Shown: positions 15,671 through 29,919 of the stretch, in pieces
Position numbering within the stretch: the stretch's first letter is position 1
Layout: the number at the start of each line of letters is the position of its first letter
Virus record (IMG/VR): IMGVR_UViG_3300031952_000095
Span: 1 to 31,114 of that record
Reading direction: 5' to 3' (one strand)
DNA length: 31,114 nucleotides
Source: a virus
Translations under genes and position numbers: made by a program
Notes under the pieces: generated by a model
Seen by the model: only the letters and a program-made list of their open reading frames with translations
The model's database searches: none
Told to the model about the DNA's origin: nothing

Positions 15671-16095
15671 GACCAATCTCCTCCTTTACTCTTAGTTTGC
15701 TCCATCTTAGCAAAAACCTGGTTTTTGCAAGATAAACACACATTAAAATCCATGAATTTTCTTTCAACACCCGCATGTCCATCCGAACTAACATCGGCTT
15801 TATCAACCATAACCCTAAAATATACAAACTTGCTGCCGCTTATATATAGCGGGCATAAATCACATTTAATACTACCAGCTTTGAATTTATTGATGTTCTT
15901 TTTACAACTTTCCAATCTGCTGCTATAGCACGATGGACAAATGTCGAATGATCCAATCAAGCCTCCTGGCCTTACTGATTGTCCAACATTATTTACTTCG
16001 ATTGCTCTCCACTCTTCTGAATAATATATAAACTCATTTTTCAGAACCATACCGCAAATATCGCATCTGATGCCGTCTTTAGATTGGAGCAGCAT
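15667..16095 (-). CDS. Zinc protein with four CxxC motifs
   Basis: ATG 16095 follows GGAGAAGAAG, and the upstream TTG start is less likely. The 142-residue protein carries CDIC, CPSC, CDLC and CLSC, which could form two zinc ribbons in tandem (CDIC with CPSC, CDLC with CLSC). The two halves align roughly, suggesting an internal duplication: each has CDxC, a beta hairpin with FxYF/FIYY, then Cys pair two. It overlaps the end of the DnaE-C gene by 17 bases and so is probably translated with it. The role is unknown. Confidence 0.6.
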   Translation of the reverse strand: MLLQSKDGIRCDICGMVLKNEFIYYSEEWRAIEVNNVGQSVRPGGLIGSFDICPSCYSSRLESCKKNINKFKAGSIKCDLCPLYISGSKFVYFRVMVDKADVSSDGHAGVERKFMDFNVCLSCKNQVFAKMEQTKSKGGDWS

Positions 16096-19000
16096 TCTTC
16101 TTCTCCAGTGGCAATACAATTGAGCCTGATCTAACGTTAAAGCTCAAATATTCTTCTTTCCAAGATACTCTCATTCTAACTCCCATGCCTTCCTTGAATA
16201 TATTCTCGTCATTGATAGCAAGTTCATCGGGCCACACCATTACTTTGGCAATTTCAATACCATCTGTGACATTTAATTGTTTAAATGCTCCGTTTTTGCC
16301 TCTCCTAGTATCAATGCTATCAATCACCGCCTCAAGAATCCCAGTAGATCTAGCATCATCTATAGTTTGGTTGGCGCAATTATATATACCAAGAGGCGAG
16401 CTCCAATAATATCCAAGATATTCCTTTTCAAATTTTAGCCTTTCCTCATATGAAAAATCTCCGAACATTTCTTCGAATTGTTGGATTGTCGGATTGTTTT
16501 TCGGTTTCCATTTTTCTATATGAGCTGGTATCTTCTTTTTCCTAGGATAATTGGCTAGAAATTCTTTAGTCTGTCTCAGCCTCTCTTTAGCAATATTCTC
16601 ATCGCTCCACGCTAATTTGGCCGCCACTTCTTCTTTAACGATCTTGGTGTCATTCCCAGATCCATATTTATAAAGATACCAGTTCCATAATGCTTTCCTA
16701 TTTGGGTGTAATTTATCAAATGCGCCGAGTTTAATTAACCGCTCAAATATTATTTTGTTCTTCGATGCTTGTGACACAAATTCATCAAAACTGGTGCAAT
16801 CGCGGTCGCCTTGCGCTTTTAATGCAGCTTTATCGCCAATGCCTTTAATGCTTTCTAACCCCAAAGTAATTGTATCCCCGCTGACCGAGAAAGTCTGGCT
16901 AAGCTGGTTGTAGTCAAGGGAGCCGAATTTCACTCCCTCAGATCTAGCGATTCCCATATACTTAACCAACTTTTCGCGTTTGCAATTCGTCATGACCGAT
17001 GCCCACCATTCTGTTGGATAGTGGGCTTTCAACCACAAACACCTAAATGTAATAACTATATAAGCCATTGCATGTGAATTTGCTTGTATTGGTTGACCAT
17101 CCTGTGGTGAGGTTATGTAATTGTGCTGAATAGATCTCATCTCTGGCGAATATGTCCTCTTAACTCCGATATATCTGATGCTCTTAATATAGCATCCGCT
17201 ACGATTTGCTTCCTTACCAAGAATCTCGTTGCCCCCCTGTAGAGATATCTCAGGATCGGTTTGCACTGTTTTAGGCCAGACCACGCCACAGCGTTCATCC
17301 TCTCTGAATATTCTGTTATCTTGCTCACTCTTACCCTGCAGTGCTTGATTATCGCGTCCCTGAATCCTTTTACTACTTTCGGAGATCCGCAAAATTTTAC
17401 CATAGGATATCCCTTGCCATTTACGATAATCGTTCCGTCTCCATCCATAAGCCCTCTCAGAAGATGGGAAATAAACCGCATGCGTGGCATTATCTCCCGT
17501 CCTTCTTTTCCCTGAATCACACCATATTTGCTTAGGTCCGCTAATAACATCCTGCTGCTGGCTGATATCCTCGATTGCGGACCAGCACGCTGTTTCTTGC
17601 AGATTACCATCTTCCTTGGTGTTTTTATATCTTGGCCAAATTGCTCCACCAGCAATTGATCTTTCGAATTGAGCTGCAAACTTACATATCCCCTCCCGTT
17701 GTGAACGTACCCATCTGCTATCAACATCCCGATCCAATATGCCTTTTCTGGCGAATCTATCTTCGAAAAGTAATAATGGTTCACACTGTTGGATGCTTGA
17801 GTTATAAATGATCTCTGTACGCCATGCTTTTTTATTATTCTCCTTATCGTTCCGTCCGATGAAAATGCTCTTATGTCGTTTTTTATTTCTTTGTATGATG
17901 CACCCTCCTGGTACATCCTTACCACTTCTTTCTCTATTTGCAGATTTAGCTTGTGAAACATATTCTCCTCCAGTCATGCTATCACTTATATATTTGATTG
18001 CATGACCGGTCTTCAAGAGAGACTTAACAGTTTCCATGTTGCCATAAACATTCATAAATTTATGGCCAATAGTCACGTTCTGCGTAAGCCCATTACTAAA
18101 CATAACTTGATATATTGGCAGCATGCCATTGTAGTGTATATTGACCACATCGTCGGCTACTAGTTCACCATTATTAAATGACAACAGCTTGAACGGCTTT
18201 GGATTTAGATATAATTGTTCTATCGTCGTCCTTTCTAATGTTATTGGATTGACAATGGTCGTGTCGCCGTCTAGGCAGGCATTGAAGCAATATCTAGCAA
18301 ATGACTCTATTTTACCCCACCACTCAACCGCCTTATCGTGCCCGATTGTTTTGGTAGCCCCAGCAATCATCTTGTCTTTGATCTTTTTTAGTTGATCGGC
18401 CCACTTCTTAGCTACAGCCTTTCTCGCGGCTTCGGCTTCTGGTACTGTGAATCCACATATTTTGATGAAGAACTTGCTTAGTTGCTCCTGAAAAACTATA
18501 ATCCCGTAAGTGTCTGATAAAATTTCTACTATTTTAGGGTCCTCTTTGGTTTTCCAATCATCATTTTTGGCGTCTCTTCTTGCAACATAATCGTTGACCA
18601 GCGGTAAAGGTCCTGGTCTACCAAGAGACGTATAAATAACCATGTCATAGAAACTTTTTACACCATGCCCCTTTTGGATTATGCTTTTAGCGAGATCTGT
18701 TTCAAATTGGAATATGGTCTCTACTCTTCTCTTATCGGCCATATCTAACGCTAGGTCGTCCTTAAAACTTATGGCGCTCTTGGTGCCATCCGGCAATATT
18801 TCCCACCCGGCCCTATCAACCTCGGGGTCCATATCGCCCCAATCGATTATAACTCCGCGATTTTTCTTTATAAACTGTTTGCATATCCATATATGCAAAA
18901 GGTTGGTTAAGCCAAGTATGTCAAATTTTATAAATCCAAATTTTGACAGTTGAGTGCTTTTGCCTTCCGTCCACGCCGATGTCCATTGCCCTTTTGGTCC

Positions 19001-19666
19001 AGATGGGCTTTTAGTAAGAGGAATATAATCACGTACTGGTACGCTTGATATTATTAACCCACCTGCATGTCTTCCTTGGGACCTAATTAATTTCACTAGC
19101 CTATACGACATTTTGATTACGCTGTCGTTATTGTCCGCAAATGTCTTAAAATTCGGGTAGGCATTACATGCCGCTTCAAAATCCATATCGTCGAATTCAT
19201 CTGGTAGTTCTTTAGTAAGCCTCTGCGCTTCTGTTGGGTCAATCTTCATTACCCTACACACGTCTGTTATCGCCAACTTTGGTTTATATGTCTGCCACAA
19301 CCCAACACTACATACGCGATCCTCACCATATTGTTTTGATGCATATTTTTTAATATGATCGCGTGCTATCGGTAGGAAGTCAGTATCAATGTCTGGATAA
19401 TCTGGTTGATATACAATATTATGTGGTATGCTGCGTTCTATTGGGTTGATGCTGGTTATCCCAAGAAGCAGTGGAAATACCAACCCATTATGGTTGGTGT
19501 CGAACGTTCTTTTACTATCATATAGGTCAATCCAATAATCCTCAGCACCCTGTAACTCTATTTGGTCTAATTCATATCTTAACCTTCCGGTATATTCTGT
19601 AGTTCTACCCTTAAACCTCGTGGCGAGGGTGTTGGCCGCCAATCTTTTCAGTTCCTTCCACGTCAT
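16079..19666 (-). CDS. dnaE: DNA polymerase III alpha, C-terminal half, interrupted by an intein
   Basis: The 1195-residue precursor gives about 795 residues after splicing. It carries the family C catalytic centre: QPDYPDIDTDF (88-97; D94 and D96 correspond to the two metal-binding aspartates), RHAGGLIIS (199-207) and FIKFDILGL (245-253) with the third Asp D249. The fingers follow, with SLGRPGPLPLVNDYVARRD, VFQEQLSKFF and, after the intein, SHAMAYIVITFRCLWLKAHYP. A helix-hairpin and an OB domain (AVIDSIDTRRGKNGAFKQL...) end the protein. The PHP domain and GPARGSAGGS motif are on a separate gene (20795-22207). The ATGA overlap couples it to the RNase H-like gene. Confidence 0.92.
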   Translation of the reverse strand: MTWKELKRLAANTLATRFKGRTTEYTGRLRYELDQIELQGAEDYWIDLYDSKRTFDTNHNGLVFPLLLGITSINPIERSIPHNIVYQPDYPDIDTDFLPIARDHIKKYASKQYGEDRVCSVGLWQTYKPKLAITDVCRVMKIDPTEAQRLTKELPDEFDDMDFEAACNAYPNFKTFADNNDSVIKMSYRLVKLIRSQGRHAGGLIISSVPVRDYIPLTKSPSGPKGQWTSAWTEGKSTQLSKFGFIKFDILGLTNLLHIWICKQFIKKNRGVIIDWGDMDPEVDRAGWEILPDGTKSAISFKDDLALDMADKRRVETIFQFETDLAKSIIQKGHGVKSFYDMVIYTSLGRPGPLPLVNDYVARRDAKNDDWKTKEDPKIVEILSDTYGIIVFQEQLSKFFIKICGFTVPEAEAARKAVAKKWADQLKKIKDKMIAGATKTIGHDKAVEWWGKIESFARYCFNACLDGDTTIVNPITLERTTIEQLYLNPKPFKLLSFNNGELVADDVVNIHYNGMLPIYQVMFSNGLTQNVTIGHKFMNVYGNMETVKSLLKTGHAIKYISDSMTGGEYVSQAKSANRERSGKDVPGGCIIQRNKKRHKSIFIGRNDKENNKKAWRTEIIYNSSIQQCEPLLLFEDRFARKGILDRDVDSRWVRSQREGICKFAAQFERSIAGGAIWPRYKNTKEDGNLQETACWSAIEDISQQQDVISGPKQIWCDSGKRRTGDNATHAVYFPSSERAYGWRRNDYRKWQGISYGKILRISESSKRIQGRDNQALQGKSEQDNRIFREDERCGVVWPKTVQTDPEISLQGGNEILGKEANRSGCYIKSIRYIGVKRTYSPEMRSIQHNYITSPQDGQPIQANSHAMAYIVITFRCLWLKAHYPTEWWASVMTNCKREKLVKYMGIARSEGVKFGSLDYNQLSQTFSVSGDTITLGLESIKGIGDKAALKAQGDRDCTSFDEFVSQASKNKIIFERLIKLGAFDKLHPNRKALWNWYLYKYGSGNDTKIVKEEVAAKLAWSDENIAKERLRQTKEFLANYPRKKKIPAHIEKWKPKNNPTIQQFEEMFGDFSYEERLKFEKEYLGYYWSSPLGIYNCANQTIDDARSTGILEAVIDSIDTRRGKNGAFKQLNVTDGIEIAKVMVWPDELAINDENIFKEGMGVRMRVSWKEEYLSFNVRSGSIVLPLEKKNAAPI
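17078..18277 (-). mobile_element. Intein in DnaE (400 codons)
   Basis: The intein starts at C464 (CLDGDTTI) after FNA and ends at N863 (QPIQAN) before Ser of SHAMAY. Removing it restores FNA-SHAMAY, matching FNKSHSAAY of bacterial DnaE. Block B (NVTIGHKF) and the C-terminal HNYIT block are present, and the +1 Ser is compatible with splicing. The site is a few residues downstream of the cyanobacterial split DnaE intein site. The central part of the frame encodes no recognisable domain because the endonuclease is read in another frame there. Confidence 0.88.
17137..17961 (-). CDS. LAGLIDADG homing endonuclease nested in intein, +1 frame
   Basis: The 274-residue protein has an N-terminal helix-turn-helix (residues about 5-50). 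Two LAGLIDADG helices follow, YWIGMLIADG (75-84, catalytic D83) and LLRGLMDGDG (167-176, catalytic D175), so it is a monomeric double-motif enzyme. The frame is shifted by +1 relative to DnaE. It has its own ribosome site: GGAGGAG at 17965-17971 just upstream of the ATG, so it is translated separately and not by frameshift from DnaE. It would cut intein-less dnaE alleles and spread the intein. The surrounding DnaE frame stays open throughout, so both frames are under constraint. Confidence 0.85.
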   Translation of the reverse strand: MFHKLNLQIEKEVVRMYQEGASYKEIKNDIRAFSSDGTIRRIIKKHGVQRSFITQASNSVNHYYFSKIDSPEKAYWIGMLIADGYVHNGRGYVSLQLNSKDQLLVEQFGQDIKTPRKMVICKKQRAGPQSRISASSRMLLADLSKYGVIQGKEGREIMPRMRFISHLLRGLMDGDGTIIVNGKGYPMVKFCGSPKVVKGFRDAIIKHCRVRVSKITEYSERMNAVAWSGLKQCKPILRYLYRGATRFLVRKQIVADAILRASDISELRGHIRQR

Positions 19667-20022
19667 GAGCTACACAGTTTCCTAATTTCTTCGTTTCTTT
19701 CGAACGTTATTGATGCATTCTTTTCTATTATAAGCTTTCTGATTTCATCTACTAGTTCTTTATTTGATTTTGGCAGTTTTAGCCAATTATCGCCCTCATG
19801 CCTTAAGATATCACATACATAGACGTTTGGTGTTGAAATTATTATTGGTGTAACATTCGAACCAAGTAAAGCAAATTTAACCGCCAATAATTCAACATAA
19901 TTAAGTGTCGAATCTGATTTGACTTCATGCACATACGATCTAATTTCACTACCTATCTTAATTATAACAGCGAACTTCGACCCAGTCTTTTTACTGACTA
20001 TCCCACCAGTCTCAATTTTCAT
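19663..20022 (-). CDS. Degenerate RNase H-fold protein
   Basis: The 119-residue protein follows the RNase HI pattern: an N-terminal hairpin (GGIVSKKTGSKFAVIIKIGS), then the helix LNYVELLAVKFALL in the position of the conserved Glu helix. IIISTPNVYVCDIL corresponds to the xxTDSxYV strand but lacks the aspartate. The first catalytic Asp also is absent. So the fold may be kept while catalysis is lost; a decoy or structural role is possible. AGGA precedes the ATG. It is located between the two DnaE halves and coupled to the second. The family assignment is tentative. Confidence 0.45.
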   Translation of the reverse strand: MKIETGGIVSKKTGSKFAVIIKIGSEIRSYVHEVKSDSTLNYVELLAVKFALLGSNVTPIIISTPNVYVCDILRHEGDNWLKLPKSNKELVDEIRKLIIEKNASITFERNEEIRKLCSS

Positions 20023-20434: not shown

Positions 20435-20795
20435 GGATAGTTAATCCTAAAATTTCTCTAGCTATTTTAAGCCCATTAATGGTTCCTTGTATTAATATTT
20501 TATCGGTTGGCAACAAATTCAATGGTATTCTCTTCTGGTTTGATAACTCCCACACATCACCTTTTCGATCATCATACATTTTGACTAATTTTCGTAATGT
20601 ATCACAGGTTTGTGTGAAACCAATCGACCTAAACAAAAACCTTAGTTCTGACGTATATTGCTTATGTGTAATGCTGATATAAACATATGATTCGCCCCAT
20701 ACTTCATTTGAATCTTTATATGATCCATCTGGATCAGCCATTATACTAATGGCGCAAAATCCTCTTCTAAGCAGCTGGTCAATTTCTTTATACAT
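20370..20795 (-). CDS. Unknown protein, 141 aa
   Basis: The 141-residue protein directly follows the DnaE N-terminal half: stop and start share an A (TAATG), so translation is coupled. It has a beta-rich N-terminal half (GFCAISIMADPDGS...ESYVYISITHKQY), a helix, and a Pro/Gly tail. I do not recognise it. Given its position it might help assemble the split polymerase, but this is a guess from context. Confidence 0.55.
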   Translation of the reverse strand: MYKEIDQLLRRGFCAISIMADPDGSYKDSNEVWGESYVYISITHKQYTSELRFLFRSIGFTQTCDTLRKLVKMYDDRKGDVWELSNQKRIPLNLLPTDKILIQGTINGLKIAREILGLTIHDQREVKPTPRPGGQSPTCTS

Positions 20796-22207
20796 TATTC
20801 CATTGATACTTTCAGCATGTTGCCGCCTCGAGACGGCGACATGAACCTATTAAATGATAGGTGCCACTTTAATGGATCAAGCTCGTGGATCCCGATTAGA
20901 AAACAAACCAATGATCCGCCAGCGCTACCTCTGGCAGGACCAACATCCCATCCACTATTAATAGAATATTGTATTAAATCTCGAATCACTAAAAAGTATG
21001 GCGCGAAGCCTTTCGAGATGATCCGACTTAATTCTATCAGGGCTTGCTCTTTATGGGTGACCATCTTTCCATCAACTTCATATTTCTTCTGGCTATTATA
21101 TAACTCCTTATCCTTGAGAGCATTTAATACTAAAACTGTTAGTTTATCACTAGCGTTTTTAATGGCTGGTAATTTTGGTGATAGGTCTGGTTTAAACCCA
21201 TCGCATTTTTCTGCAGCTTCAACAGTGTTATCGCAAATTTCTTCAAATTTAGCCTGACTAACATCTGCATTATAGCCATGCTCGTGGAATATAGCCCTAA
21301 GATGCGATCTGCTCTTAAAATATTGCTCGCTTGAATTGGTGGTGAATAGCTCAGGATCATCTAATGTCTTTTTTTGGTCAACCGCCATCATGCATTTTTG
21401 AACATCAAAGTCTTGTCTGTGAATATAATGGCAATCATTAGTTATGACGGCTTTTATGCCAAATTCATCAGACCATCTCGCGCATGTCGCGAAAGCTTGG
21501 ATTGACCCGTCAAGGTCTTTACCCGGCATTTGCATTTCAATATATAGGTCCTTCCCAAATATTTCGCGCATATCATTTAACCACTGTCTGGCCATCTCTA
21601 AATGCCTACTTGCTTCCGAATTTTGGCCTTTAATGGTTAATTCGTGTGCTGCCCTTATCTCGTGACATACCGGACCATTCATACACCCACTAAGAATAAT
21701 TAGCCCGTCTTTATGGCTATCAAGTATATCCATCCAGATTCTTGGTTTATAATAATGGCCAATTTCCCATGCATTGGTAGTCATATGGATTAAATTTTTA
21801 TACCCAACTTGGTTTTTAGACAAAACAGTTACGTGTCTATGCCTGCGTAATAATTCATATTTTTCTAGGTCCAACAATTTCAAAGATGACCATTTATTAC
21901 CACTTTTTTGGAATTCCTGTAGTTCATTGTGGTGATCATTATAATATATCTCACATCCTGGTATGAATTTTATCTTATATGTTTTGGCCGCAAAATAAGC
22001 GTCTGGGAAAGATGCAAGACACCCATGATCGGTTATGGCAATAGCTGACATACCAAGTTCTCCGCACCTTTTCATATAATCTTCTGGTGATGCAATACCA
22101 TCAAGAGCTGAAAATATAGTATGTGAGTGCAGATGCACCAAATCTTTTGGTCCTGGATATTTAATCTCTATATCATCTATTGCGTCTGGTGTTCTGACAT
22201 CTTCCAT
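20795..22207 (-). CDS. DNA polymerase III alpha, N-terminal half (PHP + start of palm)
   Basis: The 470-residue protein has a PHP domain: HLHSHTIFSALDG (25-37), AIAITDHGC (56-64), the FIPGCEIYY strand, and ITNDCHY with the later metal histidine. It continues with KGFAPYFLVIRDLIQYSINSGWD and GPARGSAGGS (423-432), the nucleotide-binding loop of the palm. It then stops 38 residues later after FNRFMSP, just before where the catalytic PDIDIDF should follow. The PHP histidines appear intact, so it may retain 3'-5' exonuclease or pyrophosphatase-type activity. It is complemented by the gene at 16079-19666. Confidence 0.9.
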   Translation of the reverse strand: MEDVRTPDAIDDIEIKYPGPKDLVHLHSHTIFSALDGIASPEDYMKRCGELGMSAIAITDHGCLASFPDAYFAAKTYKIKFIPGCEIYYNDHHNELQEFQKSGNKWSSLKLLDLEKYELLRRHRHVTVLSKNQVGYKNLIHMTTNAWEIGHYYKPRIWMDILDSHKDGLIILSGCMNGPVCHEIRAAHELTIKGQNSEASRHLEMARQWLNDMREIFGKDLYIEMQMPGKDLDGSIQAFATCARWSDEFGIKAVITNDCHYIHRQDFDVQKCMMAVDQKKTLDDPELFTTNSSEQYFKSRSHLRAIFHEHGYNADVSQAKFEEICDNTVEAAEKCDGFKPDLSPKLPAIKNASDKLTVLVLNALKDKELYNSQKKYEVDGKMVTHKEQALIELSRIISKGFAPYFLVIRDLIQYSINSGWDVGPARGSAGGSLVCFLIGIHELDPLKWHLSFNRFMSPSRGGNMLKVSME

Positions 22208-24523: not shown

Positions 24524-24556
24524 ACATTAATTTTGATCATAACGCAAAGATATTGC

Positions 24557-24952
24557 ATGGATCCTAAAGACATAGCCAAATTAATAACTGAAGACCCAGA
24601 TGTGCCAACGGCATCAGATGAGGGGTCGCAGACATATGAAGATGAAACTGGCTTATATGAAATAAACATCAGAAAACTTTGGATAATAACCAAAAACAAT
24701 CCTATAAAGTTCGTCAGCACCAAATCATTATATAAAAATCTTATAAAGAGAGGATGGCAATTTGGAGAAGATAGCGAATGGGAAGCGAGAGCAGATCTTA
24801 ATTACCCGATAATATTAGATGAAACTGGAGATTTAATAGATGGGACGCATAGGATAAGAAAGGCATTAACTATTGGTGCAAAGACAATCAAAGCAACTAT
24901 CGCGACTATCGATCAAATAAAGGAAGCGTCAACGTGGATCCCAAAGACATAG
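24557..24952 (+). CDS. DPKDIAKLITEDPDV-tagged ParB-like protein
   Basis: ATG 24557 is chosen because it gives the tag shared with five other genes; the longer frame starts at TTG without SD. The 131-residue protein has the tag at 1-16 (I-T-E cleavage-like site, E12), a helical middle and a C-terminal ParB/sulfiredoxin-like segment: YPIILDETGDLIDGTHRIRKALTIGAKTIKATI, with DGTHR at 95-99. Such domains bind nucleotides or act as nucleases. Its stop overlaps the next tagged gene by 19 bases. The tag and fold suggest an injected effector. Confidence 0.72.
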   Translation: MDPKDIAKLITEDPDVPTASDEGSQTYEDETGLYEINIRKLWIITKNNPIKFVSTKSLYKNLIKRGWQFGEDSEWEARADLNYPIILDETGDLIDGTHRIRKALTIGAKTIKATIATIDQIKEASTWIPKT

Positions 24953-25428
24953 CTAAACTGATCACTGAAGATCCAGATGTCTTTTGTGAATTAAGACAAC
25001 CGATGGTTGGATATTTAAAAGACACCTTCCCAAAGGTTCCGGATTATGTCATCAAAGATTTTATATATCCTATAATAAAAGATGATCCAAAATGGGCTAA
25101 AGAATGGAAATCAACATGGTTATCTGATTCGACATGGAAATTAGAAACAATAACCGTTACTTTAGACATTTTTATTCCTAGAATACGTCAAAAACTCAAA
25201 AGAAGAATTGAAGGTGAAAACCCAGATTTGGTTCCACGAGACGCAGAAAGGCATCAAAAGCAAAAAGAAATAATAAAAGCAGGACCATCAAAAGAACCGA
25301 TAATAATGATAAAGCGCAACGATGGCTATGAACTGATTGAAGGATGGCATAGAACAATACAGTCTTTGTTGGCGTGGCCAGAAGGATATGAACAAGCCGC
25401 TTGGGTTGCATATCCTTCTGGTGAATAA
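24934..25428 (+). CDS. DPKDIAKLITEDPDV-tagged protein with ParB-like C-terminus
   Basis: GTG 24934 starts inside the previous gene, with GGAAG upstream. The 164-residue protein has the tag at 1-16 (E12 as cleavage-like site), a helical region rich in Trp and Lys, and at the C-terminus PIIMIKRNDGYELIEGWHRTIQSLLAW, with EGWHR (136-140). This matches the DGxHR-type element of ParB-like folds, as in its neighbour. The bodies of the two adjacent tagged proteins are otherwise different, so this is not a simple tandem duplication. The function is unknown; I infer an internal virion protein. Confidence 0.7.
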   Translation: MDPKDIAKLITEDPDVFCELRQPMVGYLKDTFPKVPDYVIKDFIYPIIKDDPKWAKEWKSTWLSDSTWKLETITVTLDIFIPRIRQKLKRRIEGENPDLVPRDAERHQKQKEIIKAGPSKEPIIMIKRNDGYELIEGWHRTIQSLLAWPEGYEQAAWVAYPSGE

Positions 25429-25459
25429 AACTCGGTGCGTTTTACTCTTGGAGTATACA

Positions 25460-26065
25460 ATGATCGATCCCAAAGACATAGCTAAATTGATTACCGAAGA
25501 CCCGGACGTGCCACAAGAGCAGGACGAGCAGACTGCAACGCTCGACGACCGCACCTTCGGGAAGGGCCACGATCCCAAAGATCCGAGTGGCATGAGAGAA
25601 GAAGACAGGATAGAAAAGGCAGCAAAATCCTTGGGATATATCGACACAGACAAAAGCACTGGAGAAAAATTCTGTGGTAATTGCCACAAACCAATTGGAT
25701 CATTATATAAACCATTGTCTTTAGCGTGTAATAGTTGTAAACGTCCATTAAAATATGCAAGCCGTGCAGATGCGATGAATGCCGCAAAAACACAACCAGC
25801 TCAACAACCAGCTCAACAACCAGCTCAACAACCAGCTCAACAACCAGCTCAACAACCAGCTCAACAACCAGCTCAACAACCAGCTCAATCTCAAGCCAAG
25901 AAACAATATGTCGCTTGGGTAGAAGAACAATTTCATGCTGCTATAGAAAAACTTAAAAAGCAGAGGGAAAGTGGGCAGATGACTGGAGAACAACAAAAAG
26001 CCTACCTACCAAAGTTGAACGAGTGGTATAAAAACGCGTTACAAGCGGCACAAAACAATAGTTAG
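25460..26065 (+). CDS. Tagged zinc-ribbon protein with QPAQ repeats
   Basis: ATG 25460 follows TTGGAG at good spacing and gives the tag; the longer upstream frame overlaps the prior gene. The 201-residue protein has the tag (2-17, E13 after I-T), a charged region, a zinc ribbon (CGNC 72-75 and CNSC 90-93), then eight QPAQ units (about 112-143) and a basic helical C-terminus. The repeat probably acts as flexible linker between zinc ribbon and helix. An injected DNA- or RNA-binding protein is a reasonable idea; the sequence proves only the tag and the ribbon. Confidence 0.72.
   Translation: MIDPKDIAKLITEDPDVPQEQDEQTATLDDRTFGKGHDPKDPSGMREEDRIEKAAKSLGYIDTDKSTGEKFCGNCHKPIGSLYKPLSLACNSCKRPLKYASRADAMNAAKTQPAQQPAQQPAQQPAQQPAQQPAQQPAQQPAQSQAKKQYVAWVEEQFHAAIEKLKKQRESGQMTGEQQKAYLPKLNEWYKNALQAAQNNS
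25793..25888. repeat. 12-bp tandem repeat, eight units (QPAQ codons)
   Basis: Eight identical CAACCAGCTCAA units encode (QPAQ)8 inside the tagged gene. Exact identity implies recent expansion; length may vary between isolates. Confidence 0.95.
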
Positions 26066-26099
26066 CAATTGATCGAAGTGTTAGTTCTTGGGCAGACCG

Positions 26100-26813
26100 A
26101 TGAAATTAGCTGTATTACTTGAAGATGAACGATACACACCTAACTTCGTAGATCTCTTAATGTCCGAATTTGAAGATCTTGGATATAAAGTCGACGCTAA
26201 ACATGAAATAGGATTGACTGCCGATCATGATTTTAGGGTGTTATGGGTTAGTAAGAAAGACAACCCACACATTATAGCAAACATTGGAACGCACGTACTG
26301 TATTTCTCAAACGTCAAAGAAATAATAATTAACATATCAAAAGATGACAAAATAATTGATAGTTTTGCGGTCCCATGGGATCCATATAAGCAAGGAAATA
26401 CTGAAGATTTAATAAAGACCGTTTGTGATCGATTAGATAATCAAGATGTGCCAAAACCAATGAAAGTTGATGGCCCTGTTCCATCAGACAACCGCCACGT
26501 ATATCACATAACTAATCTAGAAAATGCCCTGCAGATTGCAAAGCAAGGCTTATTAACACATAGTCCATCATATGGAACTGACCAGGAAACGTGGCCAGAC
26601 GGCACATCAGGAAGAAGAAGTTATTGGATGAACAGTGCTGAACACATATGGCAGTTCGCGCCAGATGAAGGTCAGGCAGTGCTCTTAAGAGCACGGCTAG
26701 ACCATAATTTTGAAATAGAACACACAACAAACGACTATTATGCCACAGACACAATCTGGCCACACCTTATTGATATATATTGCGAGGATGGAAAGTGGCA
26801 TAGTTTGGTATAA
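26100..26813 (+). CDS. Tagged ADP-ribosyltransferase-like protein
   Basis: ATG 26100 begins MKLAVLLEDE (tag with L-L-E, E8). The 237-residue protein has an N-terminal domain (about 10-120) of unknown type. The C-terminal domain has HVYHITNLENALQIAKQGLL (VYHIT at 134-138), then GRRSYWMNSAEHIW and a final TIWPHLIDIY. This order is typical of ADP-ribosyltransferase-fold proteins such as DarT- or Tpt1-like ones: first (Y)HxT strand, hydrophobic helix ending GL, then S/Y strand, then acidic strand. The catalytic Glu is not certain. T4 packages ADP-ribosyltransferase Alt in its head with a similar cleavable N-terminus, a good functional parallel. No strong SD. Confidence 0.62.
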   Translation: MKLAVLLEDERYTPNFVDLLMSEFEDLGYKVDAKHEIGLTADHDFRVLWVSKKDNPHIIANIGTHVLYFSNVKEIIINISKDDKIIDSFAVPWDPYKQGNTEDLIKTVCDRLDNQDVPKPMKVDGPVPSDNRHVYHITNLENALQIAKQGLLTHSPSYGTDQETWPDGTSGRRSYWMNSAEHIWQFAPDEGQAVLLRARLDHNFEIEHTTNDYYATDTIWPHLIDIYCEDGKWHSLV

Positions 26814-26820
26814 ATGGTGC

Positions 26821-27057
26821 ATGATGAATCCACAAGATGCTAACTTTATAGACCCATGTAACCCAGTGAGATGCAATAATCTGCATACTGCGGATTGCAA
26901 CGACAATATGGTGTACTGTCAAGATTTAGATGAAACTATAGGTATGGTTGGTATATCAAATTTGATAATCATCAGATTTGGGAAATATACTATTGTCGCG
27001 CACCGCAGCAGAATAGAAGATGTCAAAAAGATGATCGACATATTTATAAATAAATAG
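26821..27057 (+). CDS. Unknown small protein, 78 aa
   Basis: The frame is open upstream, but ATG 26821 right after the preceding stop seems the best start. The 78-residue protein begins MMNPQDANFIDPCNPVRCNN, has three or four cysteines in its first 40 residues and a beta-rich C-terminal half (SNLIIIRFGKYTIVAHRS). The start resembles the tag only loosely (NPxD) and lacks the (L/I)xE site, so I do not count it as tagged. Its function is unknown. Confidence 0.5.
   Translation: MMNPQDANFIDPCNPVRCNNLHTADCNDNMVYCQDLDETIGMVGISNLIIIRFGKYTIVAHRSRIEDVKKMIDIFINK
27045..27052 (+). promoter_or_regulatory. TATAAATA box, T4-late-promoter-like
   Basis: An exact match to the T4 late -10 consensus TATAAATA lies nine bases before the ATG at 27061, so transcription from it would give almost no leader. 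It overlaps the end of the previous gene, and chance is possible. Confidence 0.25.
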
Positions 27058-27060
27058 CGT

Positions 27061-27906
27061 ATGATTAACTTTCCAAAAAGAAATGTAGCCCAGCCAGTAA
27101 TCCAACCTTCCAAAAACACTGAAGTAGTTGTTTCACACCAGCAGCTTCCAGAATCCCAAAAACAAGTAAAACACTCATGCCCAGGAGCTATATGGAACGA
27201 TAAGTTATATCCATCAGAATTATGGCAGATGCATGATGACTTAGATAAACTCGCTTATAGGAAATTATCGCAAAAGGAAGCTGACGAAATTAGGGAGAGA
27301 ATTTGTGTGTCGTTAAGTCAAGCCGAATTGATAGCCGATGATAAGTTATTTAAATTCGTGCAAGACTCAATAAATTCAGTTGGGATCGACCAATATTCCA
27401 ATATGCTTAAACAAGCAATGACCTCAGACTCGCAGATATTATTGGCTCTTAGATGTTATGCGGCTGCGACGTCTGAATTTCGCGCTCGAGACACCATAGA
27501 GATATATTCAAACAAGAGTATGAACTCAATTGAGTTTTTCCCATCATCTTGCCAGGTAGACTCTACCTGCCTAATTGACAGACCTGAATCTGATGACGAT
27601 GACCCATATTGGAGGTCTAAAAATCATAGTAGCTCAAAGCATCGCAAAATTAGAAGTATAATGACTGACCCAGAACCAACCGAGAGAGACAAAATGCCGT
27701 CCTCTATCGCAGGGCAGATGTCTAACATATTAAGCGGATTCGGAATCAATGTCCAAACTAATAGAGATGCTTGGGACGTACTAAGTGTTAAATCTAAAAC
27801 ATCATCTGTTGAAGACCGAATCATCTCGAGAATCGCATATTTAATCATGAATGCCAATGTGCGAAAAAATATAATAGCTAATCATAAATTAGCGGGACCA
27901 GCATAA
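27061..27906 (+). CDS. Unknown protein, 281 aa
   Basis: The 281-residue soluble protein has an N-terminal Pro/Gln/Lys-rich stretch, a helical core (about 55-140) and an acidic/basic charged tail region (PESDDDDPYWRSKNHSSSKHRKIR), then a helical end. No motif is recognised and no tag is present. It lies between tagged genes and could be a head or scaffold component, but that is only neighbourhood. No SD stands out; the ATG is four bases after the preceding stop. Confidence 0.6.
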   Translation: MINFPKRNVAQPVIQPSKNTEVVVSHQQLPESQKQVKHSCPGAIWNDKLYPSELWQMHDDLDKLAYRKLSQKEADEIRERICVSLSQAELIADDKLFKFVQDSINSVGIDQYSNMLKQAMTSDSQILLALRCYAAATSEFRARDTIEIYSNKSMNSIEFFPSSCQVDSTCLIDRPESDDDDPYWRSKNHSSSKHRKIRSIMTDPEPTERDKMPSSIAGQMSNILSGFGINVQTNRDAWDVLSVKSKTSSVEDRIISRIAYLIMNANVRKNIIANHKLAGPA

Positions 27907-27926
27907 GTTGGTGGCGGACTAAACTA

Positions 27927-28445
27927 ATGAATCCAAAGGATCCTAAAGACATAGCTAAGTTAATAACTGAAGACCCAGACATTCTGTCTGAGGAATATTG
28001 TAATTCGTGTGGTGGGTGGGACAAGAAACAGGGTGGTACTGGACATAAATATGGTTGTCCTAAAGGTGGTGCTGGTACACCAATCGCCGCTTTGGTTGAT
28101 GACACCAAAGAAATAGCATTATCAATACGCGATCAAGTAATAAATGCACTTCACCAAAATAAGAGTGGATGGTATGTTGAACCATGGGTAGATGCCCTTA
28201 ATAAATATCTAACTAAATATACTTTAGCAATGTCTGTTGATGAAAACGACGACGTTAAACTTACGTTATACGACTACATCGATGATCCTGTTGCTATGAA
28301 TAAACCAGGAATAATGGTTGGTATACCAGATATAGAACGAGCTGAGATATATGCTGCTAGTAAAAATATGGTAGCTATTGATCATGTTTGTAAGAGAATG
28401 ACCGAAATGATGGCTGATGCTTATAAAATGGATACCAAAAGCTAA
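27927..28445 (+). CDS. Tagged protein with small zinc site
   Basis: The 172-residue protein begins MNPKDPKDIAKLITEDPDI, in which the DPKDIAKLITE tag is preceded by an extra NPK (cleavage-like E15). Behind the tag, CNSCGGWDKKQGGTGHKYGC (25-44) offers a C-C-H-C zinc site. The rest has helical and beta segments with no recognised domain. The stop overlaps the ATG of the next tagged gene in TAATG. The first 35 codons are thus tag plus zinc finger, possibly a DNA-binding tip left after cleavage. Confidence 0.7.
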   Translation: MNPKDPKDIAKLITEDPDILSEEYCNSCGGWDKKQGGTGHKYGCPKGGAGTPIAALVDDTKEIALSIRDQVINALHQNKSGWYVEPWVDALNKYLTKYTLAMSVDENDDVKLTLYDYIDDPVAMNKPGIMVGIPDIERAEIYAASKNMVAIDHVCKRMTEMMADAYKMDTKS

Positions 28446-28969
28446 TGGAACCAGCAGATATAGCTAGGTTTATTACAGAAGACCCAGATATACCAAATAG
28501 GCCAATGCTATATATGCCAATTGGACCTTCTGGTATTGGTAAAAGTACATTTCTAAACAAGCTTAAAAGACACAATCCAGATATTGAAGTCTTTTCGCTT
28601 GATATTCTTCGCCACCGCTGGTACGACCCAAAAGATTATGCTGTAGCTTGGAAGAAATCGTCTGAAGACTTGCAATTTTCAAATAAAGCTAATGATGAAT
28701 TTATAAGATTGATTCAAACTGGGAAAGACATATATGTTGATAATACCAATCTGACACCTAGGCGTAGGTCTTTTTATATTGAGAACGCTAAGAAATTTGG
28801 ATACGTAGCTATTGCAATAACATTCCCAGGCGCGGACGTCGAAACTCTGGTAGCTAGACAACTAACGCGTGGAGACAAGAGAGTGCCGGAGGATGCCGTG
28901 CGTGGGCAATTTAATGCTCTGATACCACCAGAGGAAGAAGAATTTGATTACACCATGCAGGCATCATAA
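28445..28969 (+). CDS. Tagged polynucleotide-kinase-like P-loop protein
   Basis: The 174-residue protein has the tag variant MEPADIARFITEDPDI (cleavage-like E12), then Walker A GPSGIGKST (27-35), FSLDILRHRW, a helical lid and DNTNLTPRRRSFYIENAKKFGY, which matches the DxTN(L/T) and R-rich elements of T4 PNK-like and AAA_33 kinases. A late lid Arg pair (QLTRGDKR) also fits. It would phosphorylate 5'-OH ends or a small substrate. Only about ten residues separate the predicted cleavage site from the kinase fold, so cleavage would leave the enzyme whole. Confidence 0.78.
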   Translation: MEPADIARFITEDPDIPNRPMLYMPIGPSGIGKSTFLNKLKRHNPDIEVFSLDILRHRWYDPKDYAVAWKKSSEDLQFSNKANDEFIRLIQTGKDIYVDNTNLTPRRRSFYIENAKKFGYVAIAITFPGADVETLVARQLTRGDKRVPEDAVRGQFNALIPPEEEEFDYTMQAS

Positions 28970-29014
28970 ATATCTTACTGACGACAGGCTCACTCGTAAG
29001 TCATAGGACTAAAT
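28970..29014 (+). promoter_or_regulatory. Short gap with CATAAATA box
   Basis: CATAAATA (28965-28972) differs by one base from the T4 late -10 consensus and stands 43 bases before the ATG at 29015. A CTTAC/GTAAG pair that could form a weak hairpin follows. Confidence 0.3.
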
Positions 29015-29353
29015 ATGAAACTAATACAATTAATTGGCGAAGGCTGGGATGAGATGGGCATACAAGATCCTGGGATATATGATGTTATCGAAGCTCATGA
29101 CCATTCGATTTCGAATCAAAGTGAAATATTAAGAAGCAAACAGTGTGGGTGCTTCTACTGTGGTATGATATTCCCACCATCTGAGGTCACCGATTGGATG
29201 AATGAAAATCCACATCCTAAAACCGGTAAGCCACGCGAACCGACTGCCCCATGCCCATATTGTAACAAAGATACTGTGATAGGAGATGCGTCAGGATACC
29301 CAATAAATCAAGAATTTCTAGATAAAATGTATGAACATTGGTTTGGAAGATGA
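29015..29353 (+). CDS. Tagged zinc protein of a bacterial cytoplasmic family
   Basis: The 112-residue protein begins MKLIQLIGEG, a variant tag with I-G-E. The body (about 20-112) matches from memory a small bacterial family often annotated as cytoplasmic protein: an N-terminal HxxSxxxxxEI helix, then CGCFYCGMIFPPSEVTDW (CFYC 46-49) and CPYCNKDTVIGDASGYPIN (CPYC 80-83), ending FLDKMYEHWFG. The two CxxC pairs bind zinc. Thus a host-type domain seems fused to a phage tag, a sign of module capture. Its function in bacteria is unknown to me. Confidence 0.7.
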   Translation: MKLIQLIGEGWDEMGIQDPGIYDVIEAHDHSISNQSEILRSKQCGCFYCGMIFPPSEVTDWMNENPHPKTGKPREPTAPCPYCNKDTVIGDASGYPINQEFLDKMYEHWFGR

Positions 29354-29391
29354 ATGTTTGTTTTGATGGGCCATCTGGAGTGTATTAGAAG

Positions 29392-29919
29392 ATGAACACT
29401 ATTCCAGAAGATATGGCGAGATTAATCACTGAAGATCCTGATGTGCACGATTCAGATTATATATCGGTGATCATTACGAGCACTGGGGACATCGTAAGAT
29501 ATCGCTTCGTGATCGAAGGAAATGAAATGGGCTTGAACGATGCGCGCAGGTTACTAGAACGCGCTGGATTTTCCGGAGCAGAAGCCATAGAATATATTCG
29601 CGCTCTGCGAGAGAAGAAATTTGTCCAACAACCTGATGGTACATTAGAACCAATTGATGAAAAGCAACCAGTGCGTGAGTCAGATATTTCAATAGAAGGG
29701 AAAGAGTGGTTTAATATACTAAAAGATAAAGAGCAAATCATAATAAAACAAGCGCTTGCAACTACTTCTAAGATCTCAGCACCACTTTGGCACTTTAGCG
29801 ATCTGGCTGTTCGCCAATTTGTTTCTGATACATTCAATTTCACAAAATTATGTAACCACGTCGAAAAACAAATTGGGTCGCCACGTGATAGAATAATTTT
29901 ATGGTTAACCCAAGGATAA
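29392..29919 (+). CDS. Tagged protein, 175 aa, unknown body
   Basis: The protein begins MNTIPEDMARLITEDPDV, a divergent version of the tag (PEDMARLITE, cleavage-like E14). The body has a helical region with RRLLERAGFSGAEAIEYIRALREKKF, an acidic linker and a helical C-terminal part. It shows no recognised enzyme motif. It overlaps the following kinase gene by 19 bases. The tag alone places it in the proposed packaged set. Confidence 0.7.
   Translation: MNTIPEDMARLITEDPDVHDSDYISVIITSTGDIVRYRFVIEGNEMGLNDARRLLERAGFSGAEAIEYIRALREKKFVQQPDGTLEPIDEKQPVRESDISIEGKEWFNILKDKEQIIIKQALATTSKISAPLWHFSDLAVRQFVSDTFNFTKLCNHVEKQIGSPRDRIILWLTQG

Follow-up and report, generated by a model that had tools for sequence, protein, structure and literature searches.

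The DnaE gene of an uncultured phage is likely to carry a cis-splicing intein with a homing endonuclease encoded by a nested gene in another frame, which is initiated separately, while selection keeps the intein frame open. A probability of about 0.85 is given to this reading, in which splicing, internal initiation and cleavage are inferred. The window, as the whole analysed stretch is called here, comprises the 31,114 nucleotides of IMG/VR record IMGVR_UViG_3300031952_000095. When an alignment of the endonuclease family was used as a query, a second carrier was obtained: L022, a contig of 370,804 bases from a distantly related phage.

The host gene (16079..19666, minus strand) is an open reading frame of 1195 amino acids without an in-frame stop, which encodes the C-terminal part of a DnaE-type DNA polymerase III alpha together with the intein. 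It matches DNA_pol3_alpha (2.7e-34), the finger domain (1.2e-27) and HHH_6 (1.7e-11) in Pfam, and phrog_405 (1.3e-125). DnaE of the window is split into two genes, the PHP/N part at 20795-22207 (minus strand) and the catalytic part at 16079-19666, with three small genes between them, one of which is RNase H-like (19663-20022). The layout of small genes and catalytic part is repeated among the relatives L012-L022, and the preceding N part was seen in the window and in L022.

The intein comprises 400 residues (464-863 of the frame; 17078..18277, minus strand) with the extein junctions RYCFNA/CLDGDT and PIQAN/SHAMAY. It contains Cys1, the block B motif TIGH, a C-terminal block TYSPEM...HNY..., a final Asn and Ser+1, and the empty site RYCFNLSHAIAY is found in L012, a 68%-identical relative. 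The expected Cys or Ser at position 1 and terminal Asn followed by Cys, Ser or Thr are present (C464 ... N863/S864) and are the same in L022; the TxxH block B is likewise present in both as VTIGHKF. Homology to known inteins of the Hint fold is supported by an hmmsearch profile of the intein (A5), which matches structure 2keq, the Npu DnaE intein, at 4e-13 with both N and C blocks covered, and by Foldseek matches of the intein model, of low depth, to a RecA intein (4.5e-5) and a DnaE intein (1.1e-4). The insertion is missing from the homologous host genes of 14 empty relatives. The penultimate His of block G is not found: this residue is Ala in both carriers and Lys/Arg in L014, L122 and L125. 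Several natural inteins lack the penultimate His. The element does not fit a large intein with an in-frame endonuclease domain, as the endonuclease lies in frame +1 in both carriers, and neither carrier is a split intein with its halves on separate reading frames, a layout met only in L014, L122 and L125.

The N-terminal splicing half, 105 codons at 17962..18277 (minus strand), contains Cys1 and the TIGH block B and is 51% identical to that of L022. It scores 15.8 bits against TIGR01445, under the curated cutoff of 24.5 bits; the N-inteins of L022 and L014 are above this cutoff and that of L122 is at it. In the AF2 model the blocks of the N half have pLDDT values mostly about 80; the underlying alignment is shallow, with only 8 sequences, and confidence is low outside the N half. 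The C-terminal splicing block IKSIRYIGVKRTYSPEMRSIQHNYITSPQDGQPIQAN (17078..17188, minus strand) is supported by alignment with the C-inteins of L022, L014, L122 and L125. Between the two lies an unconserved linker, or filler, overprinted on the endonuclease gene (17189..17961, minus strand), with no stop and with pLDDT mostly under 50.

The nested gene (17137..17961, minus strand) starts with ATG, ends with TGA and encodes 274 amino acids with an N-terminal helix-turn-helix and two LAGLIDADG motifs, LIADG (D83) and LMDGDG (D175). Both acidic residues are unchanged across 20 relatives. The protein matches phrog_4645 (1.2e-44) and PF14528 (1.9e-7), and its AF2 model (pLDDT 91) resembles I-Tsp061I (6.7e-9) and I-AniI (4.6e-7) in Foldseek; a PDB search with the endonuclease sequence as sole query gave no match, although a profile query did. 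Motifs, catalytic acidic residues, family matches and fold thus identify a LAGLIDADG homing endonuclease, for which cleavage of an intein-less allele is inferred, without biochemistry. A Shine-Dalgarno-like GGAGGAG (17965..17971, minus strand), read as Gly-Gly-Glu in the intein frame, ends 3 nt before the ATG, with a spacing of 5 nt from its GGAGG core; the L022 gene has GGAG at 6 nt. The endonuclease stop (CCAGAGATGA) falls within the TYSPEM codons, and the last 52 nt of the overlap, which are the first 52 nt of the C-terminal splicing block, encode this block and the endonuclease tail simultaneously. One stretch of 822 bases thus serves twice, for an enzyme in one frame and, in the other, for a linker that has no meaning but is obligatory.

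Much of this had been claimed in a preliminary description made from the sequence alone. Its placement of a 274-residue endonuclease at +1 of the intein frame held (the offset of 1705 is 1 mod 3, and the relation recurs in L022), as did the overlap of the last endonuclease codons with the splicing block and the openness of the DnaE/intein frame throughout. The GGAGGAG ribosome site held as a sequence. The claim that the nested gene is translated independently of splicing is strongly suggested by its own start, Shine-Dalgarno sequence and stop and by its being out of frame; this remains an inference, with no experiment behind it. The description of the intein frame as filler that must stay open also held, and is directly supported by the comparisons below.

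Openness of the intein frame was evaluated with a null model in which the endonuclease protein was fixed and synonymous codons were drawn from the other genes of each phage. The model predicts 22 stops in the intein frame and none is observed, the exact probability of no stop being 5.7e-13 for the window and 4.7e-13 for L022. Codons with a final T ahead of AA, AG or GA are absent from the overlap (0/66 in the window, 0/63 in L022) and are common elsewhere in the same genes (48/146 and 69/143, respectively). When the other genes of the window were counted, the same frame contained 0.109 stops per codon, which would give 30 in 274 codons, and its longest stop-free run was 70 codons. Selection thus keeps the intein frame open across the overlap. 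About 80 other members of the endonuclease family contain 5-62 stops in that frame, with the sole exception of L099, which has zero, is 71% GC and is not an intein; L026, L032 and L089 have 5-7 stops at 54-62% GC. Openness as a by-product of GC content or of the family was considered and rejected on the basis of these relatives. The third frame of both nested genes contains 36 stops, while 27.6±3.3 are expected in the window and 21.6±3.0 in L022, the expectation being conditioned on stop avoidance in the intein frame. This excess is unexplained and counts against the main reading.

The divergence between the window and L022 reveals which frame is selected at the protein level. At the first, second and third codon positions of the DnaE frame it is.37/.29/.66 (N-extein) and.41/.34/.66 (C-extein) in the exteins,.34/.26/.55 (N-intein) and.26/.15/.50 (C-intein) in the splicing halves, and.62/.38/.28 in the overlap. 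The fastest-changing position switches frame between codons 560-579 and 840-859, which are the ends of the nested gene, and the overlap therefore evolves as endonuclease codons. Amino acid identity of the filler between the two carriers, in register, is 24.7%, as against 23.0±2.0% (P = 0.25) under a null in which synonymous codons were shuffled within both endonuclease genes with stops forbidden; no conservation of filler residues beyond the endonuclease constraint is detectable in this comparison. The endonuclease frame is selected on its protein sequence and the intein frame only against stop codons, so that the pair qualifies as overprinted, with both frames under selection.

The out-of-frame endonuclease inside the intein is a real arrangement. 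The region is identical in two further IMG/VR assemblies, with one SNP relative to the window in 13.6 kb. In L022 a DnaE/intein frame of 1261 codons holds a 273-residue endonuclease (L022 3001-3822) in the equal alternative frame and at the equal place, and the intein frame has no stops across it. A paired frameshift error is excluded by the agreement of these two assemblies with the window and by the identical arrangement in L022. Neither of two outcomes that would have refuted the earlier claim has materialized: no corrected sequence places the endonuclease in the intein frame, since the other assemblies and a relative 53% identical keep the arrangement, and no stops appear in the intein frame of L022. 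The endonucleases of the two carriers are 53% identical and the DnaE proteins about 47%; the similar divergence of endonuclease, intein and DnaE suggests that the overlap is probably old. The arrangement is known from only two independent lineages, both metagenomic and from uncultured phages. A search for further carriers with the intein N-half gave none beyond these two, the whole intein frame as a query had no match among known phages, no relatives were found in bacterial or archaeal genomes, and plasmids contain distant endonucleases only. Among the few long-ORF relatives inspected, no in-frame intein with this endonuclease subfamily was recognised.

DnaE scans gave nineteen comparable genes, the window included, of which fourteen are empty at the same site, two are the overprinted carriers and three (L014, L122, L125) contain a homologous but split intein. 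In these three the N-half ends at a stop and the C-half has its own ATG, while another endonuclease gene between the halves overlaps the N-half; in L122 and L125 it encodes 511-514 amino acids with a weak Vsr-like match. In L014 (7688-8480) the endonuclease between the halves is apparently internally deleted and has an early stop, and the typical C-terminal sequence (FQKHKL...LDNFD...NMF..GYR) comes afterwards in another frame. The two overprinted carriers belong to separate, well-supported groups of the DnaE tree and each of them has intein-less sisters, a pattern expected of a mobile element that has been gained or lost repeatedly.

In the proposed mechanism, ribosomes initiating at dnaE would read through to yield a precursor made of the N-splicing half, about 260 meaningless linker residues and the C-splicing half. 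A contiguous precursor is indicated by the stop avoidance, which a split intein would not need. Since Cys1, TxxH, Ser+1 and the terminal Asn are all intact, the intein is inferred to excise itself, after which the polymerase would be joined. Other ribosomes may initiate on the same message at the Shine-Dalgarno sequence and ATG inside the intein, giving the 274-residue LAGLIDADG endonuclease. The enzyme presumably cuts intein-less dnaE alleles, and repair would copy the intein with its nested gene, as inferred from the sporadic distribution. Against this reading stand the score of the window N-intein below the curated TIGR01445 cutoff and the penultimate Ala of both carriers; an unstructured linker of 260 residues could also slow splicing.

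Other explanations are considerably weaker. An assembly or sequencing artefact, in which two compensating indels displaced an ordinary in-frame endonuclease domain, would account for an out-of-frame endonuclease in a normal intein, and can be all but dismissed: two other assemblies are identical here, L022 has the same frames, the endonuclease has its own ATG, Shine-Dalgarno sequence and stop, and, had the endonuclease been in frame, about 22 stops would be expected in what is now the intein frame, where there are none. Similarly, there is next to no room for a group I or II intron inside the intein, with the endonuclease as intron ORF and the frame open by chance. The nearest annotated endonuclease relatives (I-MsaII) are indeed intron-encoded; however, no Rfam group I or II match was obtained in the intein at the gathering or a relaxed threshold, the ORF fills the entire space between the splicing halves and leaves none for a ribozyme, and the stop avoidance would be unexplained.

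Two further possibilities are not quite so remote, though both are very improbable. The intein might really be split, with its halves translated separately around a free endonuclease gene and the open frame incidental; exactly such a layout exists at the same DnaE site in three relatives (L014, L122, L125). Yet an open frame found twice at P of about 5e-13 is not incidental, and the C-block of the window lacks an in-frame start codon directly upstream, unlike the ATG of the split relatives. Programmed ribosomal frameshifting could instead make the endonuclease as part of the intein, given that the frames are adjacent (+1) and that phages use frameshifting. However, each carrier has an ATG preceded by a Shine-Dalgarno sequence at the same position, and a stop within the C-block; members of the endonuclease family are free-standing or encoded in introns and have an N-terminal HTH of their own.

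If the main reading of a cis-splicing intein with a nested gene is accepted, its origin is a puzzle, as an endonuclease gene of the usual kind would introduce some 20 stops into the intein frame. Two routes fit the data, and each is no more than possible: the overlap could derive from a split layout of the L122 kind, or it could have originated in a GC-rich genome, where the intein frame is nearly open by default (cf. L026, L032, L089). A bolder reading, which could as easily be wrong as right, is that of a stable, undescribed intein architecture in which the endonuclease has moved into a fully overlapping, internally initiated gene, mobility and splicing reside on separate polypeptides and the linker is kept only as a stop-free frame. 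This architecture may also be an evolutionary neighbour of the split inteins at the same DnaE site.

The nearest published counterpart is the ShiLan domain / Pacc40 gp60 insertion, in which DNA methylases of phages contain HNH endonucleases out of frame (Arsenault, Gosselin, Gogarten 2025, PMC11855218). As in the window, a selfish endonuclease gene lies in an alternative frame of a stop-free in-frame insertion, whose product in the host frame is meaningless. ShiLan differs in having no splicing domain, in its 195-residue HNH enzyme with a GTG start and no detectable RBS, and in occurring in mycobacteriophages (PMC11855218). The window has splicing halves and so is not of the ShiLan type: its host is a true intein and its enzyme a LAGLIDADG protein with a Shine-Dalgarno sequence and ATG. 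Moreover, at 39-43% GC openness requires active stop avoidance, which is shown in two lineages. The claim that the arrangement is very unusual accordingly holds for true inteins in the literature searched, while the frame trick itself has a precedent (PMC11855218). The latter paper also cites a 2025 preprint (10.1101/2025.01.02.630785) that deals with “non-canonical architecture” in the inteins of actinobacteriophages and may describe something similar, and novelty is qualified to that extent.

Large inteins such as PI-SceI and PI-PfuI also have splicing halves flanking an endonuclease-coding region at a canonical insertion site, but their endonuclease is part of the spliced-out protein, whereas the window encodes it as a protein of its own in another frame. 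Fractured genes, in which a free homing endonuclease gene lies between the halves of a split intein (Dassa et al. 2009, cited in PMC7090010), share the free-standing gene between intein halves and are matched in layout by L014, L122 and L125; in the window, the intein is one continuous ORF completely overlapped by the endonuclease. HTH-LAGLIDADG enzymes of the I-MsaII type, from recA group I introns of Staphylococcus phages, belong to the same family, sharing about 27-28% identity along about 90% of the protein, but are located in RNA introns, where the host frame is free to close.

The overlap provides a case where selection for the absence of stop codons and nothing else is measurable, the linker sequence being apparently free. 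It also indicates that a homing gene can live within coding DNA unfused to the element that hosts it, with expression governed by a ribosome site of its own instead of by splicing. The presence of split, overprinted and empty alleles at one DnaE site among related phages makes the order of contiguous and split intein events testable. Annotation pipelines which retain only the longest ORF hide such enzymes.

Several other elements were observed in the window and its relatives. At 24533-29919 of the window, many small neighbouring ORFs share the near-identical N-terminal peptide MxPKDIAKLITEDPDV, and the role of this repeated module is unknown. In five relatives (L006 609-1720, L017 6304-7420, L020 6240-6600, L013 6220-6620 and L018 4950-5380) a Hint-like element in two pieces, which lacks Cys1/block A and a terminal Asn, interrupts DnaE just upstream of the catalytic PDIDxDF motif. 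Its N-fragment ends in GEVLEI.LDNG...VP..A.V....G...AKDL.IGDEL and a stop, and the second piece is encoded separately, by a small ORF with the pattern MKIVKINIIRGNVRKISSGAYNASGITILPHIG-IPHRIEYxxDxPDI, also followed by a stop. After this PDI stop DnaE continues in another frame in four relatives and in the same frame in L018, and in L006 and L017 an antisense TnsA-like endonuclease gene lies between the pieces. The element may be a non-splicing derivative of a split intein that holds the polymerase pieces together. In L030 (2002-4104) a LAGLIDADG endonuclease of the window's family is fused in frame to an apparent DNA methyltransferase in a 700-residue ORF, which is perhaps another unusual insertion.
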